From: Antarctobacter sediminis
GTDB taxonomy: Bacteria; Pseudomonadota; Alphaproteobacteria; Rhodobacterales; Rhodobacteraceae
Assembly: GCF_019218285.1 (NCBI RefSeq)
Contig: NZ_JAHUZG010000003.1
Location: forward strand, 124,001 to 188,000
Length of the DNA: 64,000 nt
Reading direction: 5' to 3'
In this document: piece after piece, positions 12,919 through 18,269 of the stretch
How the letters are laid out: the number at the start of each line of letters is the position of its first letter
How positions within the stretch are numbered: position 1 is the first letter of the stretch
Notes under the pieces: model-generated
Databases searched by the model: none
Seen by the model: the letters and a program-made list of their open reading frames with translations, nothing else
Told to the model about the DNA's origin: nothing
Program-made: the position numbers and the translations under genes

Positions 12919-14487
12919 CTAGCCCCCGCGCACCGCGGACCAGTCCAGCCCAAAGCGCGCGAGGTACTTGCGCAGCCGGTCCGCATCATTGGTCGAGGAT
13001 TTGCGCGCCCGTGACACCGCGAAGAGCCTGCGACCGGCGGCGCTTTGGCTGGACGACGTGCGGCAGGTTCGGATCACCTCGGCCAATTGAACAAGGTCAA
13101 AGGGGTCGATGTCTTCGCCGTCGGGCAAGACCTCTGCCACCAGCCGGGCGTCCTGATCCGAACGTGCCCGGCGCCAATCGTTCTGCAACATCGCAATTTC
13201 ATCCTCGACCATCGACAAGGTGATCCGCCCGCGTGGCGCAAGCACGCAAAGCCGCCGGACCGACCCCGAGAAATCGCGGAAATTGCCCGGCCATGGCGTG
13301 GCCGGATCCGACGCAAATCGCAGGTATCGGTCCCGTGCATCGGTGTTGAAACCGACCCGGTTGCCCAGATGCTTTTCCGAACGATCCAGTTCGAACCGCA
13401 GATTGGGTTCGATGTCTTCACGCCTATCGCGCAGCGCGGGCAGGCGAAAGCTCCACATGTTCAGGCGCGCCAGCAGATCGGGGCGGAACATTCCGTCCGC
13501 CGTCAGGGCGCGCAGGTCGCGGTTGGCGCCAGCGATGATCTGGAACCGGCTTGTGACCTCGTGATCGGACCCCAGAGGGTAGAACCGTCCGCTTTCGATG
13601 GCGTGCAACAGGATGCTTTGTTCATTCAGGCCCAGTTCGTCGATTTCGTCCAGGAACAAGACGCCACCATCCGCCTCGCGCAAGAGACCGCTGCGTTCGC
13701 TGCCCGCCTGTCCGGTAAAGCTGCGCCGTTGGCCGAACAGGGTGGCCAGTGCGTCCTGCCCCCGCAGCGTGGCACAATTGACATGCACCAGTCGCCCTTT
13801 GACCCTGCGCCGATCCAGTTTCAGCGTGTAGATCCGGTCGGCCAGCTGCGTCTTGCCCGTGCCGGTTTCGCCCAGCAGCAGGATCGGTTCGTCAGAGTTG
13901 CTGGCCACCAGTTCGATCCGGTCGATCAGCGCGTTGTAGGCGGGATTGGTGGTTTCGATCCCGCCCTTGAGCTGGTCGCTGTATTCGCGCGACAACTGGT
14001 CGAACCTCTGTTGCAGCGCGTTGTAGCGGCCAAGGTCGAGGTCGATGATGTCCATGCGCGCCTGTGACTCGTCCGGGCCGGGCGGGCCGGTTTGCAGCAG
14101 GCGCGCGGGGATGTGACGGCTTTCGGTCAGCAGGAACCAGCAGATTTGGGCCACATGCGTGCCGGTGGTCAGGTGGACGTGATAGCGTTCGCGATCCTCG
14201 TCAAAACCATAGCCGCGCGCAAAGTCGAACAGCTTGCCGTAGACCTCCTGAAAATCCCACGGGTTCGACAGGTCGAGGTTGCGCAATATGACCTCTGTGT
14301 CGGGATTGGTCTCTTGCACCTCGCGTTGGACGTGATGCGCAAGACGCTGAAACCGCATGTCGTAGAGGATTTCCAGACGGTCCACCGGGAAATCCTGATG
14401 GGTGACAAGGCTGATGGTCGGTTTCCAACGGCGAGTCCGCCCCACGTCGAGCTGCGTACCAAGGAAGCCGAGGACGACGTTCTTCAT
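12919..14487 (-). CDS. rtcR: RtcR: CARF-domain AAA+ activator of RNA repair
   Basis: Transcriptional activator (522 aa) of the rtc RNA-repair regulon. In studied bacteria damaged tRNA or its cyclic-phosphate ends trigger it. An N-terminal CARF-type ligand domain covers about residues 1-180 (VHLTTGTHVAQIC at 104-116). The AAA+ domain follows with Walker A GETGTGKT (206-213) and Walker B LFLDEID (277-283). The sigma-54 contact loop, normally GAFTGA, reads RSFTGQ (255-260), keeping only F-T-G. A DNA-binding region lies at the C terminus. It is divergent from the Ro60 gene. Convergent with the monooxygenase gene (four bases apart), so it is unlinked to the preceding cluster. Identity is secure; sigma-54 dependence is less certain here because of the altered loop. 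Confidence 0.92.
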   Translation of the reverse strand: MKNVVLGFLGTQLDVGRTRRWKPTISLVTHQDFPVDRLEILYDMRFQRLAHHVQREVQETNPDTEVILRNLDLSNPWDFQEVYGKLFDFARGYGFDEDRERYHVHLTTGTHVAQICWFLLTESRHIPARLLQTGPPGPDESQARMDIIDLDLGRYNALQQRFDQLSREYSDQLKGGIETTNPAYNALIDRIELVASNSDEPILLLGETGTGKTQLADRIYTLKLDRRRVKGRLVHVNCATLRGQDALATLFGQRRSFTGQAGSERSGLLREADGGVLFLDEIDELGLNEQSILLHAIESGRFYPLGSDHEVTSRFQIIAGANRDLRALTADGMFRPDLLARLNMWSFRLPALRDRREDIEPNLRFELDRSEKHLGNRVGFNTDARDRYLRFASDPATPWPGNFRDFSGSVRRLCVLAPRGRITLSMVEDEIAMLQNDWRRARSDQDARLVAEVLPDGEDIDPFDLVQLAEVIRTCRTSSSQSAAGRRLFAVSRARKSSTNDADRLRKYLARFGLDWSAVRGG

Positions 14488-14661
14488 GGGCTATCCTGTT
14501 TGATAATTCTTTATACCTTTGGATCGTATCTGCGCGCGATGATTTGGGCAATAAGGGTGTTTTAATAATGAAATCAATGCCCTGATTGGATATCTCTTTT
14601 TTCTCGGGGTTGGTCCATGGCCATGGCAAAACAGGCTCACCAACAACGAAGGAACAGAGCA
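14488..14661. promoter_or_regulatory. rtcR/Ro60 divergent promoter region
   Basis: This AT-rich gap should hold the RtcR-dependent promoter for the Ro60-RNA-rtcB unit. I find no canonical TGGCAC-N5-TTGC. The nearest match is TTGGGCA with GG at 14547-14548 and GT ten bases later (14559-14560), where GC is expected. Long T and A runs (14561-14600) separate it from the Ro60 start. The gap has clearly lower GC than its flanks. Confidence 0.4.
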
Positions 14662-16218
14662 ATGGCAAACAAATCCGTGTTTGCATCGATCCGGGGCCGG
14701 TTGCTGCCCAAGGCAACCACACGGAACGCCGAGGGCGCGCCGGCCTATGGCTACACCGATGCACATGCCCTGGCGCAACTGGCGGCCACCGGGACGATCG
14801 GTGGAATGTTCTACCAGTCGGCGCAGGATGAACTGACCCGCGTGGTCGCGCTTGCCGACAAGGTCGAGCCGGAGTTCCTTGCCCAAACGGCGGTCTACGC
14901 CCGCCAGAAAGGCAATATGAAGGATATGCCGGCGGTGCTTTTGGCGGTGCTGGCGCGGCGCGATCCGGCGCTGTTCCGGGCAGTGTTCGGCCGTGTGATC
15001 ACGCATGGCAAGATGCTGCGGACCTTCGTGCAGATCGTGCGCTCTGGTCAGACCGGGCGCAAGTCCCTTGGGTCGGCACCGAAAGCCATGGTGCAGACCT
15101 GGCTGAACACGGCTTCGGACCGGGCGATCCTGAACGCCAATATCGGCAATGACCCGTCGCTGGCGGATGTCATCAGGATGGTCCACCCGAAACCGGCGGA
15201 TGCGCGTCGCGAGGCGCTGTTTGCCTGGATCATCGGGCGTCCGTGCGATGTGTCGCTGTTGCCGGAGGCGGTTCAGGACTGGATGACCTTCAAGGCGACC
15301 TGCAATGGGCCGTTGCCGGAGGTTCCGTTCCAGATGCTGACGCAATTGCCGCTGACTGTGGACCACTGGGCGCAGATCGCGCGCAAAGGCTCGTGGCAGA
15401 TGGTGCGTCAGAACCTGAACACCTTCCTGCGCAAGGGAGTGTTCGCCGATGCCGGGATGGTCGATCATGTGGCGTATCTGCTGCGTGACGCCGAGGCGAT
15501 CTCGAAGGCCCGCGCCTTTCCGTACCAGTTGATGGTTGCGGCGCAGAACGCGGACCCCGAGATGCCGCGCGAGATCGTCGATGCGTTGCATGACGCGATG
15601 GAACTGGCGGTGCGCAACGTGCCGAAAGTGGCCGGTGAGGTCGTGATCTGCCCGGACGTGTCCGGGTCCATGACATGGCCGGTGACGGGTTACCGCAAGG
15701 GCGCAAGCTCGTCGGTGCGGCATGTGGACGTGGCGGCGCTGGTCGCGGCCTCGTTCATGCGGGTGAACCGCAAGTGCCAAGTTTTGCCGTTCGAGGTGAA
15801 GGTGCGCGAGGCGCGTCTGAACCCGCGCGACACGATCCTGACCAACGCGGAACGGCTTGCCCGGCTTGCCGGGGGCGGAACCAACTGTTCGGCGCCACTG
15901 CGCTGGTTGAACGAAAGGCACAAGGCCCCGGATCTGGTGGTCTTTGTGTCGGACAACCAGTCGTGGGTGGATGCCGGGCAGGCCCGTCAGGCGACGGCGA
16001 TGATGCAGGAATGGGAAACGCTCAAGCGGCGCAATCCCAAGGCCCGGCTGGTCTGCATCGACATCGCGCCCTACGGCACGACACAGGCGCAAACGCGCGA
16101 GGACGTGCTGAACGTCGGCGGGTTCTCGGACGCGGTCTTTGACCGGATCGCGGATTTTTCCAAGGGCCGTACCGGGTCCGAAAACTGGGTGCGCGAGATC
16201 GAAACGATCGAGATCTGA
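14662..16218 (+). CDS. rsr: Ro60/Rsr, TROVE and vWA domain RNA-binding protein
   Basis: Bacterial Ro60 orthologue (518 aa): a ring-shaped HEAT-repeat TROVE domain (about 15-320) that binds Y RNAs and misfolded RNA, and a von Willebrand A domain (about 325-515). The metal-site residues are all present: D-V-S-G-S starting at Asp332, Thr407 in GGGTNCSAPL and Asp431 in VVFVSDNQS. Typical TROVE marks are AVYARQKGNMKDMPAVLLA and F-x-R-V-I-T-H-G-K-M-L-R-T-F. The ATG at 14662 follows AAGGAA by seven bases; an earlier in-frame ATG at 14617 lacks a ribosome site. It is the first gene after the RtcR promoter and lies directly upstream of the structured RNAs described below, its expected ligands. Confidence 0.93.
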   Translation: MANKSVFASIRGRLLPKATTRNAEGAPAYGYTDAHALAQLAATGTIGGMFYQSAQDELTRVVALADKVEPEFLAQTAVYARQKGNMKDMPAVLLAVLARRDPALFRAVFGRVITHGKMLRTFVQIVRSGQTGRKSLGSAPKAMVQTWLNTASDRAILNANIGNDPSLADVIRMVHPKPADARREALFAWIIGRPCDVSLLPEAVQDWMTFKATCNGPLPEVPFQMLTQLPLTVDHWAQIARKGSWQMVRQNLNTFLRKGVFADAGMVDHVAYLLRDAEAISKARAFPYQLMVAAQNADPEMPREIVDALHDAMELAVRNVPKVAGEVVICPDVSGSMTWPVTGYRKGASSSVRHVDVAALVAASFMRVNRKCQVLPFEVKVREARLNPRDTILTNAERLARLAGGGTNCSAPLRWLNERHKAPDLVVFVSDNQSWVDAGQARQATAMMQEWETLKRRNPKARLVCIDIAPYGTTQAQTREDVLNVGGFSDAVFDRIADFSKGRTGSENWVREIETIEI

Positions 16219-16232
16219 CACCCGATACAAAA

Positions 16233-16308
16233 GGGTCAGGCGGAATGCCGACGGGACTACATTTTCAGGACATGTACCTGTCTCGTCATTTTATTGTCCG
16301 CCTGACCC
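16233..16308 (+). ncRNA. Y-RNA-like hairpin 1 (short type)
   Basis: A 76-base hairpin right after the Ro60 gene. The closing stem is a perfect 12 bp (16233-16244 with 16297-16308). The asymmetric internal loop is ATGCC on the 5' side and nine bases ending in TTG on the 3' side. An 8-bp upper stem follows (GACGGGAC 16250-16257 with GTCTCGTC 16280-16287, one G-U). The 22-base end loop starts TACA and can form AGG/CCT. The same lower stem, ATGCC/TTG loop and 8-bp stem recur in three more places downstream. This two-helix form with a conserved internal loop is the architecture of Ro60-binding stems in Y RNAs. Without a tRNA-like domain it resembles the short YrlB class. Confidence 0.7.
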
Positions 16309-16336
16309 ACTTCGAAATTGAACAGGAAAGGATTTT

Positions 16337-16504
16337 TGTCCCGGCGAATGCCGGTGGAACTACAGCGCTGTTAACGCCCAGGTTGCGGGTTCGAATCCCG
16401 TCGCGGTCACCAGATTTATGGCCGCGTAGCTCAACGGTAGAGCAGGTCTTGTTTCACCCCGGTCGCGATTTGCCTGCAAACGTGACCATCTTGTCGCCGG
16501 GACA
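16337..16504 (+). ncRNA. Y-RNA-like RNA 2 with circularly permuted tRNA domain (YrlA-like)
   Basis: An 11-bp closing stem (16337-16347 with 16494-16504), the ATGCC/TTG internal loop and an 8-bp stem (GGTGGAAC 16353-16360 with GTTTCACC 16451-16458) carry a tRNA-like head. In linear order the head has a small hairpin with loop CTGTTAA, which equals the usual tRNA-Asn anticodon loop (16365-16377); a T-arm with loop TTCGAAT (16385-16401); the acceptor 3' strand CGCGGTC (16402-16408); ACCA (16409-16412); a 7-base linker; the acceptor 5' strand GGCCGCG (16420-16426); and a D-arm with loop AACGGTA (16429-16443). The acceptor strands pair over 7 bp. The 3' half thus precedes the 5' half, with the ends at the D-arm/anticodon-arm junction. 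A further hairpin (16461-16487) sits in the 3' side of the stem. Confidence 0.75.
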
Positions 16505-16514
16505 CATGAATTTT

Positions 16515-16591
16515 CAGGGATTAGCTCAGTTTGGCAGAGTGCCGCATCCGGACTGCGGAGGCCGAAGGTTCAAATCCTTCATCCCTGACCA
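16515..16591 (+). tRNA. Cloverleaf tRNA-like gene, tRNA-Pro(CGG)-like with C33
   Basis: A full 77-base cloverleaf with encoded CCA. Acceptor CAGGGAT pairs perfectly with ATCCCTG (16515-16521, 16581-16587). The D-arm has a 4-bp stem and loop AGTTTGGCA containing GG. The anticodon stem CCGCA/TGCGG is perfect. The T-arm has 5 bp and loop TTCAAAT. The discriminator is A. The seven-base anticodon loop is TCCGGAC, so positions 34-36 read CGG (proline), and C1-G72 with A73 are also proline-type. Position 33 is C instead of the nearly invariant U, and 37 is A where proline tRNAs have G. It lies inside the Y-RNA array, so it may be a decoy, a sensor for RtcR/RtcB or a degenerate tRNA; normal decoding is doubtful. 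Confidence 0.7.
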
Positions 16592-16596
16592 GAACG

Positions 16597-16664
16597 CAGG
16601 AGGAATGCCTGCGGGGCTCCTTGTCTTCGAAACCAGATCGGCCTCGTAACATCTTGTCCTCCTG
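16597..16664 (+). ncRNA. Y-RNA-like hairpin 3 (short type)
   Basis: A 68-base hairpin: 8-bp closing stem CAGGAGGA/TCCTCCTG (16597-16604, 16657-16664), the same ATGCC internal loop opposed by eight bases ending TTG, then an 8-bp upper stem TGCGGGGC/GCCTCGTA (16610-16617, 16641-16648) with two G-U pairs. The 23-base end loop contains TTCGAAA. The stems differ in sequence from hairpin 1 but keep pairing, which is compensatory change favouring a real RNA. It starts six bases after the CCA end of the tRNA-like gene. Short class, without a tRNA-like head. Confidence 0.68.
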
Positions 16665-16682
16665 ACCATTGAACCAAGCAAA

Positions 16683-16836
16683 GCCCTGGCGAATGCCGAA
16701 GGAACTACATGGCTCCAAACTTCCGGGTAAACCGAGCGGGTTCGATTCCCCTCCTCGCCTGTGCCCATACGGCAAACGCGCGCCAGCGCGGGGCAGGTCC
16801 CGGGTTGTTTCTTCCCCCTTGTCGCCAGGGCCTTTT
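16683..16836 (+). ncRNA. Y-RNA-like RNA 4 with tRNA-like head, ending in T-tract
   Basis: A perfect 10-bp closing stem (GCCCTGGCGA 16683-16692 with 16822-16831), the ATGCC internal loop opposed by seven bases ending TTG, and an 8-bp upper stem GAAGGAAC/GTTTCTTC (16698-16705, 16807-16814). The head starts TACA, then shows CTCCAAA (16713-16719), identical to the usual tRNA-Trp anticodon loop but with a weak stem, and a T-arm-like GGG-TTCGATT-CCC (16738-16750). An irregular helix closes on loop CATAC (16756-16780), possibly a degenerate acceptor. A run of four T follows the closing stem, so this RNA may end in its own terminator-like helix, or attenuate read-through into rtcB 17 bases later. Confidence 0.65.
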
Positions 16837-16853
16837 ATCATGGATCATGAGAC

Positions 16854-18269
16854 ATGACCGACAACACGGATTTTGATCCGGTGACCGGATCGCACCTCAA
16901 GGAATGGGGGCACCGCCCGGGCAAACAGTTTCCGGCGCTGCTGCAAAAGGCCAACGCGATGCGGGCCGAAGGCTTTGGTCTTGTGCGCATCCTTTTGGAA
17001 CTGGACGCGGACATTCCGCCAGAGCCACAGACGCTGGCCCTGCGCGCGCCGGGAGAGCTGGCGTTTTCGGAAAACATCGACGTGACGCACCCGGATGAGG
17101 CTGACAATGTCGCCAAGGTGCGCGAAACGATGCGCGCCCTGATGAGAACGCCCACCATAGAGGCCGGGGCAATCATGCCGGATGCCTGCCCGGCGGGGCC
17201 GGTGGGCACGATCCCGGTGGGCGGGGTGGCGGCTGCACGCAATGCAATCCATCCGGGGATGCATTCGGCCGATATCTGTTGCTCGGTCATGATGACGGAC
17301 CTTGGCGACGCAGACCCAAAGGCGGTGCTGGACGCCGCGCAATCGGTCACGCATTTCGGACCGGGCGGGCGCCGCCCGGGCGACCGGATCGCCGTGTCCG
17401 CCGACCTGCTGGAGGCGTTCCGAGCAAACAGTTTCCTCGATAACCCCAAGTCCCTGCGCATGGCAGAGGACCACATGGGCACGCAGGGGGATGGCAACCA
17501 TTTCCTGTTTGTCGGACGCTCGCGCAAGACGGGCCGTACCACGATCGTGACGCATCATGGTTCGCGTGGGCCGGGGGCGGTCCTGTACAAGAAAGGGATG
17601 GAAGCCGCCGAGCGTTTCCGCCGAGAGTTGTCGCCGGAAACGCAAAAGCAGAATGCCTGGATCCCGGCGGATACCGAAGAGGGGCGCGCCTATTGGCAGG
17701 CACTGCAACTGATCCGCGACTGGACAAAGGCCAACCATGCGTCGATCCATGACGCCACGGTGGCCACAGCGCGGGCCGAGCCCGGCGACCGGTTCTGGAA
17801 CGAGCATAACTTTGTCTTCAAACGGGGCGATTTGTTCTATCACGGCAAGGGCGCGACCCCGGCGTGGGGGGATTATGCGGCGGATGCCAACGGGTTGACC
17901 CTGATCCCGCTGAACATGGCACAGCCGGTTCTGGTGACGCGGGGCAAGGATGCGGCCAGCGGGCTGGGCTTTAGTCCGCATGGGGCCGGGCGCAACTATT
18001 CCCGGTCCGAACATCGTCGCCGCATGGGGGCGCTGACGCCGGACCAGTTGCTGAAGGCCGAAACGGAAGGGTTGGACATCCGCTTTCATGCCGGTGGCGT
18101 GGATGCCTCGGAACTGCCGTCCAGCTACAAGAACGCCGATAACGTGGTGGCGCAGATCAAGTCCTATGACTTGGCCGAGATCGAGGATTTCATCGACCCC
18201 TATGGCTGTATCATGGCCGGTGACATCCCGCCGTTCTGGGTAAACCGCAAAAAGAAAAAGGCGCGATGA
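16854..18269 (+). CDS. rtcB: RtcB: GTP-dependent RNA ligase
   Basis: RNA ligase (471 aa) that joins 2',3'-cyclic-phosphate (or 3'-phosphate) RNA ends to 5'-OH ends through a guanylylated histidine, using Mn2+. Expected motifs are present: Asp140-Ile-Cys-Cys (metal; usually D-I-G-C), GDGNHF (212-217), HHGSRG (234-239), and the nucleophile His376 in SPHGAGRNYSR. The DICC and GDGNHF variants mark a divergent RtcB subgroup. The ATG at 16854 follows the RNA array by 17 bases and has only a weak ribosome site. With RtcR, Ro60 and the tRNA-like RNAs it forms a damage-responsive RNA-repair unit. The cyclase gene rtcA, its common partner, is missing; the next gene belongs to another operon after a strong hairpin. 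Confidence 0.93.
   Translation: MTDNTDFDPVTGSHLKEWGHRPGKQFPALLQKANAMRAEGFGLVRILLELDADIPPEPQTLALRAPGELAFSENIDVTHPDEADNVAKVRETMRALMRTPTIEAGAIMPDACPAGPVGTIPVGGVAAARNAIHPGMHSADICCSVMMTDLGDADPKAVLDAAQSVTHFGPGGRRPGDRIAVSADLLEAFRANSFLDNPKSLRMAEDHMGTQGDGNHFLFVGRSRKTGRTTIVTHHGSRGPGAVLYKKGMEAAERFRRELSPETQKQNAWIPADTEEGRAYWQALQLIRDWTKANHASIHDATVATARAEPGDRFWNEHNFVFKRGDLFYHGKGATPAWGDYAADANGLTLIPLNMAQPVLVTRGKDAASGLGFSPHGAGRNYSRSEHRRRMGALTPDQLLKAETEGLDIRFHAGGVDASELPSSYKNADNVVAQIKSYDLAEIEDFIDPYGCIMAGDIPPFWVNRKKKKAR

Follow-up and report, generated by a model that had tools for sequence, protein, structure and literature searches.

The window, a stretch of 64,000 nucleotides, holds an expanded array of bacterial Y RNAs of the YrlA/YrlB kind in the 635 bases that separate rsr from rtcB. 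The array consists of four hairpins with predicted binding to Ro60, and the reading of the second hairpin as a complete circularly permuted tRNA with a 5-bp anticodon arm and the anticodon GUU is well supported. The Y RNA genes adjoin a Ro60 orthologue that carries both the vWA_Ro60 and the TROVE domains of Pfam, and a tRNA-Pro-like gene is embedded among them (Table 1). For the role of Ro60 and Y RNAs in bacterial RNA-repair operons, a Y RNA containing a complete tRNA with a fast-changing anticodon, at a locus where many relatives have additional tRNAs for Lys, Asn, Gln, or Pro, makes it testable whether such RNAs act as anticodon-directed baits and replacements against enzymes that cut tRNAs.

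Table 1. Features of the rtcR-rsr-rtcB locus in the window.
Feature	Position	Strand	Evidence
rtcR, sigma-54 activator of RNA-repair operons, divergent	12919..14487	-	Pfam RtcR 239.8 bits, Sigma54_activat 128.5 bits
rsr, Ro60 orthologue	14617..16218	+	Pfam vWA_Ro60 68.8 bits, TROVE 33.7 bits, each above cut-off
Y RNA copy 1, short, class B (YrlB-like)	16233..16308	+	motif scan, fold, covariation
Y RNA copy 2, long, class A: Ro60-type stem bearing a putative complete circularly permuted tRNA	16337..16504	+	Rfam YrlA E 1.7e-12
Copy 2: anticodon hairpin GCG-CTGTTAA-CGC (tRNA positions 29-41), anticodon GTT at 16370-16372	16365..16377	+	fixed-register test
Copy 2: T arm of permuted tRNA	16385..16401	+	
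Copy 2: closed acceptor (3' strand, ACCA at 16409-16412, 7-nt linker, 5' strand; 7/7 pairs)	16402..16426	+	
Copy 2: D arm, A26, positions 27-28 (GG; partner CC at 16378-16379)	16429..16446	+	
Copy 2: extra hairpin, 3' side of Ro60-type internal loop	16461..16487	+	fold
Embedded tRNA-Pro(CGG)-like gene with C33, A37, C38, between copies 2 and 3	16515..16591	+	Rfam 60.6 bits, Aragorn
Y RNA copy 3, short, class B	16597..16664	+	motif scan, fold, covariation
Y RNA copy 4, long, class C: T-arm-like hairpin and D-loop-like stretch (by eye), no GCTCA D stem	16683..16831	+	
rtcB, RNA ligase	16854..18269	+	Pfam RtcB 119.5 bits

The initial annotation had proposed four hairpins, each with a closing stem of 8-12 bp and a second, inner stem. 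When we scanned the interval independently with a pattern of a stem, ATGC, TTG, and the complementary stem, the four hairpins were recovered at identical coordinates, and their closing stems measured 12, 11, 8, and 10 bp for copies 1 to 4, respectively. Both helices were present in the single-sequence minimum folds, with an inner helix of 8-9 bp, and in copy 3 the internal loop was partly paired as well. The fold z-scores of copies 1 to 4 were -5.69, -3.65, -2.20, and -1.79, respectively, and 0, 0, 6, and 12 of 200 shuffled sequences folded equally well. The scan also covered 81 regions located 3' of Ro60, comprising the window and a named set of 80 loci (the best 80 of 400 retrieved by their Ro60); for the 11 named loci with no RtcB match, the scanned stretch was the sequence downstream of rsr up to 3 kb. 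It gave 295 hairpins and none on the reverse strand, and five mononucleotide shuffles of the 81 regions gave 2, 0, 1, 0, and 0. The number of hairpins per locus ranged from 0 to 7 with a median of 3, and clustering divided them into classes A (126, YrlA-type), B (70, short), C (57), D (9), and E (8), with 25 others.

Compensatory change in the stems had also been claimed, and among relatives it was strong in classes B and C. In class B (31 sequences), 98.5% of the cells were paired and 61 were double-changed versus 15.2 in shuffles, and the corresponding values in class C (21 sequences) were 95.2%, 100, and 27.5. None of 500 shuffles, which leave the relatedness of the sequences in place, reached the covariation values of either class, and slid versions paired in 34-58%. 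The homologous copies with covarying stems that the annotation had expected at the same position in relatives are thus present, as seen from the 295 hairpins and the covariation of classes B and C. Taken together, the folds, the scan, and the covariation reveal the two helices and the conserved internal loop that characterize a Y RNA.

We compared the four copies with the Rfam models, for which E-values were computed over 801 bases. Copy 2 scored 58.2 bits against YrlA (RF02553), below the gathering score of 69; its alignment matched model positions 1-114 with insertions including the anticodon hairpin, and it contains the tRNA-like domain of YrlA, complete with the T, acceptor, and D arms. 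We describe copy 2 as a YrlA-type variant. It resembles YrlA in its basal Ro60-type stem with a conserved internal loop, in the permuted order of the three arms, and in its position beside rsr and rtcB, whereas the Rfam consensus lacks an anticodon hairpin and the RNAs described here have an anticodon arm, often NCCA, and a changing anticodon. To our knowledge, the solved YrlA domain has no free CCA end. Copy 4 belongs to class C, in which the GCTCA D stem is absent, and scored 18.9 bits against YrlA (E 0.38), missing the gathering score. Copy 1 reached 23 bits against YrlB (RF02565; E 0.053; gathering score 97 missed), and copy 3 had no YrlA or YrlB match in the Rfam scan and missed the gathering score of YrlB. 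Copies 1 and 3 appear similar to YrlB in form only: they share its short two-helix hairpin and differ in their weak scores and in occurring as two copies, one of them just behind a tRNA. The description of the array as an expanded Y RNA family of two short and two long members stands for the family and the sizes, but the account was incomplete, because the two long copies belong to different classes, a tRNA-like gene lies inside the array, and copy 2 can be read as a permuted tRNA with an anticodon arm. The Salmonella rsr-yrlBA-rtcBA locus, as described in PMC7790460, likewise combines rsr, Y RNAs, rtcB, and an adjacent RtcR, and the loci analysed here differ from that description by larger arrays, by classes C, D, and E, and by embedded tRNA genes. 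None of the papers listed by our literature searches showed this array layout.

The transcript of copy 2 runs from the Ro60 stem through tRNA positions 29-31, the loop CTGTTAA, positions 39-43, the variable loop, and the T arm, and continues with the acceptor 3' strand, ACCA, a 7-nt linker, the acceptor 5' strand, U8 A9, the D arm, A26, and positions 27-28 before returning to the Ro60 stem. The Ro60-type stem is an insertion between tRNA positions 28 and 29. Copy 2 shares with circularly permuted tRNA genes the succession of 3' half, CCA, short linker, and 5' half, able to form all four arms, and it differs from them by the Ro60-type stem at the join site and in that its maturation to a working tRNA would be hypothetical. 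Genes of this permuted kind are treated in PMC3978253. When copy 2 was folded alone, the energy minimum was -73.0 kcal/mol and did not contain the full tRNA reading, which has an energy of -64.7 kcal/mol.

We examined whether the tRNA reading extends to the other class-A RNAs. Aragorn on un-permuted sequences was rejected as evidence: it made calls for 46 of 46 RNAs, but also for about 38 of 46 with a shuffled anticodon segment and for 44 of 49 others. Since these calls were not discriminating, a fixed-register pairing test was used. Among the 126 class-A hairpins, 31 had no parsable core when all arms were required (95 kept) and 22 when the acceptor was required (104 kept). First, the acceptor was fully paired (7/7) in 54 of the 104 RNAs and had at least 6 pairs in 92, and NCCA stood directly behind the acceptor 3' strand in 32 of them, against a chance of about 1 in 64. 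Second, with a 5-nt variable loop, the anticodon stem was fully paired (5/5) at register 28|29 in 47 of the 95 RNAs, while other registers gave 0-12, the 12 coming from the overlapping register 29|30; 500 shuffles gave a mean of 0.71 and a maximum of 4. Third, when the 95 rows were taken together unselected, four pairs (27:43, 28:42, 29:41, and 30:40) exceeded all 1000 partner shuffles; pair 31:39 did not (65 versus a maximum of 68). Fourth, the 47 fully paired RNAs had U33 in 42, R37 in 44, and Y32 in 46, and a full anticodon stem was found in 29 of 32 RNAs with NCCA versus 18 of 63 without it. Finally, 24 RNAs combined all hallmarks tested: full pairing of the acceptor (7/7), the T stem (5/5), the D stem (4/4), and the anticodon stem (5/5), together with NCCA, U33, and R37.

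The arm was also found outside this set. The long YrlA copies of two Mameliella loci (L052 and L053), which fall outside class A and were parsed separately, each have 5/5 anticodon pairs and GCCA. In 15 further loci from other families, nine RNAs were parsed and five had 5/5 anticodon pairs, among them L205 and L206, each with GTT, and L204 (loop CTTTTAA), which stems from outside the taxonomic class. Since the arm is present in two loci of the named set whose records bear the titles Luteolibacter marinus (L130) and Rhodanobacter (L131, a MAG), it may be old. The full stem at register 28|29 was absent from 48 of the 95 parsed class-A RNAs, indicating that the arm is dispensable for some YrlA RNAs.

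The anticodon varies considerably on this scaffold. The 47 fully paired RNAs carry GTT (17), GTC (5), GTG (3), TTG (3), ACG (3), and thirteen others; the anticodon starts with G34 U35 in 25 of these RNAs and in 13 of 31 distinct arms, versus 3 of the 38 housekeeping anticodons read, a set without tRNA-Tyr. Eleven RNAs picked by their common anticodon stem CGACA/TGTCG have a common D stem, a nearly identical T arm, and somewhat varying acceptors, and carry six anticodons, so that a similar body with six anticodons offers a natural series for experiment. The sister loci L052 and L053 show GTT and TCT, respectively, on one stem. On the Ro60 tree, the 17 anticodon states over 46 loci require at least 22 changes. 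Base 73 is independent of the anticodon, as A73 is common to the GTG, TTG, ACG, and CAT copies and the CTT copy has G73. When the loops of the Y RNAs were compared with housekeeping loops of equal anticodon, 8 of 19 were exact matches (192 of 5000 permutations as good) and base 37 agreed in 16 of 19 (277 of 5000 as good), so the match was only slightly above chance. The variation fits anticodon recognition by something that varies among lineages better than it fits translation. A separate candidate pattern, avoidance of the same anticodon in the Y RNA and the tRNA of a locus, gave a Fisher p of 0.007 but was not significant on the tree, and its general version gave p 0.07 by permutation; it was rejected.

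These data bear on two other readings of copy 2. In our judgement it is highly improbable that copy 2 gives rise to a working tRNA through the combined action of RNase P, an endonuclease, and RtcB, with the Ro60 stem serving as an intron-like element. The complete tRNA with an encoded CCA adjoining an RNA ligase gene speaks for this, but base 73 does not track the anticodon, a cutting enzyme would have to be postulated, and an 8-bp stem joins the ends. If it were true, the product would be a damage-induced emergency tRNA with a fast-evolving anticodon and with the Ro60 stem as an intron-like handle. It is also conceivable, and we consider it rather unlikely, that the RNAs serve the ordinary function of Ro60 and YrlA, in which the tRNA-like end serves only for the docking of PNPase or of a different effector, and the anticodon arm survives as a passive relic. 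The roles of YrlA reported in PMC8394870 and the lack of a full arm in about half of the parsed class-A RNAs agree with such a function; a relic, however, is not expected to retain U33, R37, Y32, and full pairing between split strands while the anticodon varies, and the embedded tRNAs would be left unexplained.

Embedded tRNAs were common in relatives. The Ro60 of the window is present in 24 of 394 genomes of the family, and 16 of these 24 regions hold 23 tRNAs, each of them Lys, Asn, Gln, or Pro. In the named set, which shares organisms with this family set, the 11 loci with no RtcB match were excluded from the enrichment count, and 41 of the remaining 69 RtcB-bearing intervals hold extra tRNAs, amounting to 62 tRNAs in 73.2 kb. 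The flanks used for comparison (688 kb) gave seven plus-strand calls, one of which is a false Aragorn call inside rsr (L100), and one minus-strand call. The 62 embedded tRNAs were Asn (22), Gln (15), Lys (12), Pro (12), and one unassigned, so that four identities account for 61 of 62. When each tRNA was assigned to the closest Y hairpin in the 60 nt before it, all 12 Lys tRNAs stood behind class A. Asn tRNAs followed class C in 13 cases and class A in 1 (no near hairpin in 8), Pro tRNAs followed class A in 7 and another class in 1 (none in 4), and Gln tRNAs followed class A in 4 and another class in 1 (none in 10). These counts indicate that the slot behind a class-A RNA is taken by Lys, Pro, or Gln and the slot behind a class-C RNA by Asn. 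Another lineage has consecutive Pro, Asn, and Gln tRNAs. On a quick Ro60 tree, tRNA presence requires at least 16 changes, and slot identity at least 7 among 29 loci. At L113:7249, we observed an Asn anticodon on the body of an operon tRNA-Gln, an anticodon switch in place.

A reading in which the tRNAs act as punctuation, with the embedded tRNAs and the NCCA/acceptor of YrlA as RNase P and 3'-end signals that cut a polycistronic transcript into Y RNAs, is a serious rival, though an improbable one in our view. Among the 62 embedded tRNAs with an upstream Y hairpin, 38 start within 15 nt of its end, as such processing would suggest. On the other hand, 28 of the 69 intervals have Y hairpins and no called tRNA, any tRNA would suffice for the purpose and yet four identities prevail, and the anticodon arm finds no explanation.

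The embedded tRNAs are extra copies beside separate housekeeping genes, as judged by sequence. With the housekeeping tRNAs of the source genome as queries, all 23 genomes searched gave matches for Lys and for Asn, and 22 of them gave a match for Gln; the one genome with no Gln match is 64% complete. Among the fetched loci, the housekeeping genes that Aragorn confirmed numbered 22 for Lys, 20 for Gln, and 25 for Asn. These Lys, Gln, and Asn genes vary little and are distinct from the operon copies. A C2.A71 mismatch marks 12 of the 13 operon Lys rows, versus G2.U71 in 20 of 21 parsed housekeeping rows, and all 15 operon Gln tRNAs have a GCTC D stem, versus a GCC-type stem in the 20 housekeeping rows. 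All 13 operon Pro tRNAs have A37, and three of the 13 (the window, L052, and L101) also have C33; the three Pro genes elsewhere in the source genome have G37. Most embedded Asn, Gln, and Lys tRNAs have normal anticodon loops. In a test for phage origin, the matches listed (8 of 441 records for the Pro query and 8 of 958 for the Lys query) were 75-86% identical, and six further records for the Lys query, outside those listed, stood at 99%. Three tRNA calls came from the 15 further loci, some of which are weakly similar; the single call located between Ro60 and RtcB (L214, Ala) was rejected as a misread Y RNA.

That the embedded genes are spare tRNAs only, a stress-induced supplement beside Y RNAs that serve Ro60 separately, is in our view unlikely. 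The normal loops of most Asn, Gln, and Lys copies, together with their divergence from the housekeeping genes, would suit such a role, and a precedent is given by TrcR, which represses both the Anabaena tRNA operon and rtcB according to PMC10272220. The A37 and C33 of the embedded Pro tRNAs and the Lys mismatch speak against it, and the permuted tRNAs would have no place in it.

The Pro gene of the window requires separate consideration. The tRNA-Pro identity elements are C1-G72, A73, G35, and G36. The gene has a cloverleaf and all of these elements, but it lacks the U33 and G37 of the three other tRNA-Pro genes of the source genome and has C33 and A37 instead. No second copy of it was found in the source genome, whose tRNA set comprises 45 tRNAs read from 39 stretches, of 47 Rfam matches. 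In Mameliella L053, the corresponding stretch has no T loop as judged by eye. From C33 in the window gene and the loss of the T loop in Mameliella, we suggest that the Pro copy may be decaying in the source lineage.

The reading we prefer is that the locus supplies Ro60-docked anticodon baits and spare tRNAs made upon tRNA damage; this function is inferred, and we place about as much trust as doubt in it. Cut tRNAs would cause RtcR to switch on the operon, and Ro60 would dock the Y RNAs through the basal stem and display tRNA bodies with intact, lineage-specific anticodon loops. The displayed bodies could occupy anticodon nucleases as non-translating baits, the embedded tRNAs would provide additional baits or replacements for the few most-cut tRNAs, and RtcB would reseal the cut ones. 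The bait anticodon and the identity of the embedded tRNA would then drift among lineages as the attackers change. Regulation of the Salmonella operon by damaged tRNAs through RtcR and a proposed role of YrlA as a competitive inhibitor of a nuclease are both found in PMC7790460. The same paper gives YrlA fragments as undetected, that is, YrlA uncut, and this counts against the bait reading, as do the 48 of 95 class-A RNAs without the full arm and the energy minimum of copy 2. Among anticodon nucleases, PMC10264068 names PrrC acting on tRNA-Lys(UUU), VapC, and colicins D and E5, and it presents phage tRNAs as proposed to escape such nucleases; Cas13a is reported to act on uridine-rich anticodons. 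The embedded tRNAs resemble the phage tRNAs and the Anabaena trn operon of PMC10272220 as supplementary tRNAs tied to tRNA damage or translation stress, and differ from them by being chromosomal, by lying within a Ro60/RtcB repair locus, and by being nearly confined to four identities.

We then searched for signals and enzymes that such a mechanism would involve. With the sigma-54 consensus (-24/-12), no promoter match with two or fewer mismatches was found between rtcR and rsr, and the best score of the window in this gap was 7/11. Among the stretches upstream of rsr, whose place is approximate, 11 of 81 scored 9 or 10 versus 4 of 80 controls inside rsr, and the bulk scored 6-7 versus 7-8 in the controls. 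A colicin-E5-type domain was matched in 4 of 198 family genomes, 3 of them over the Pfam cut-off, and was absent from the source genome in the Pfam search; this absence and the lack of a promoter match in the window count against the bait reading.

Several observations lie beside the main argument. A scan of 398 genomes with the Rfam YrlA model gave a match with E <= 0.001 in 140 genomes and over the cut-off in only 3. We rejected the matches elsewhere as true copies, as 20 of 20 other loci examined were tandem tRNA arrays, that is, chance matches. In L314-L334, the model fits neighbouring halves of tandem tRNA genes, which is a source of false matches and at the same time might hint at the origin of YrlA. 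A second, partial RtcB-like match lies far upstream of rsr, near 648-1304, in L054, L057, L059, L060, and L090. In the source genome, outside the locus, two odd adjoining tRNA-like genes lie at G000:C4:147928-148093 (L155), one with an unassignable loop and one Ser GCT-like, and at G000:C1:722896-722944 a 49-nt piece matches part of tRNA-Asn exactly; similar pieces occur in several relatives, and the piece may be a remnant of an integration site. As judged by eye, the nine class-D hairpins (L060:7253-7389, L064:7238-7369, L119:7155-7301, and relatives) resemble permuted class-II (Leu-like) tRNAs that open in the D loop and not in the anticodon stem, with the anticodon arm as a short hairpin. 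On the reverse strand of L207, a 139-nt hairpin from position 2664 looks, also by eye, like a class-I tRNA whose opening lies in the D loop, which would be a third kind of permutation.
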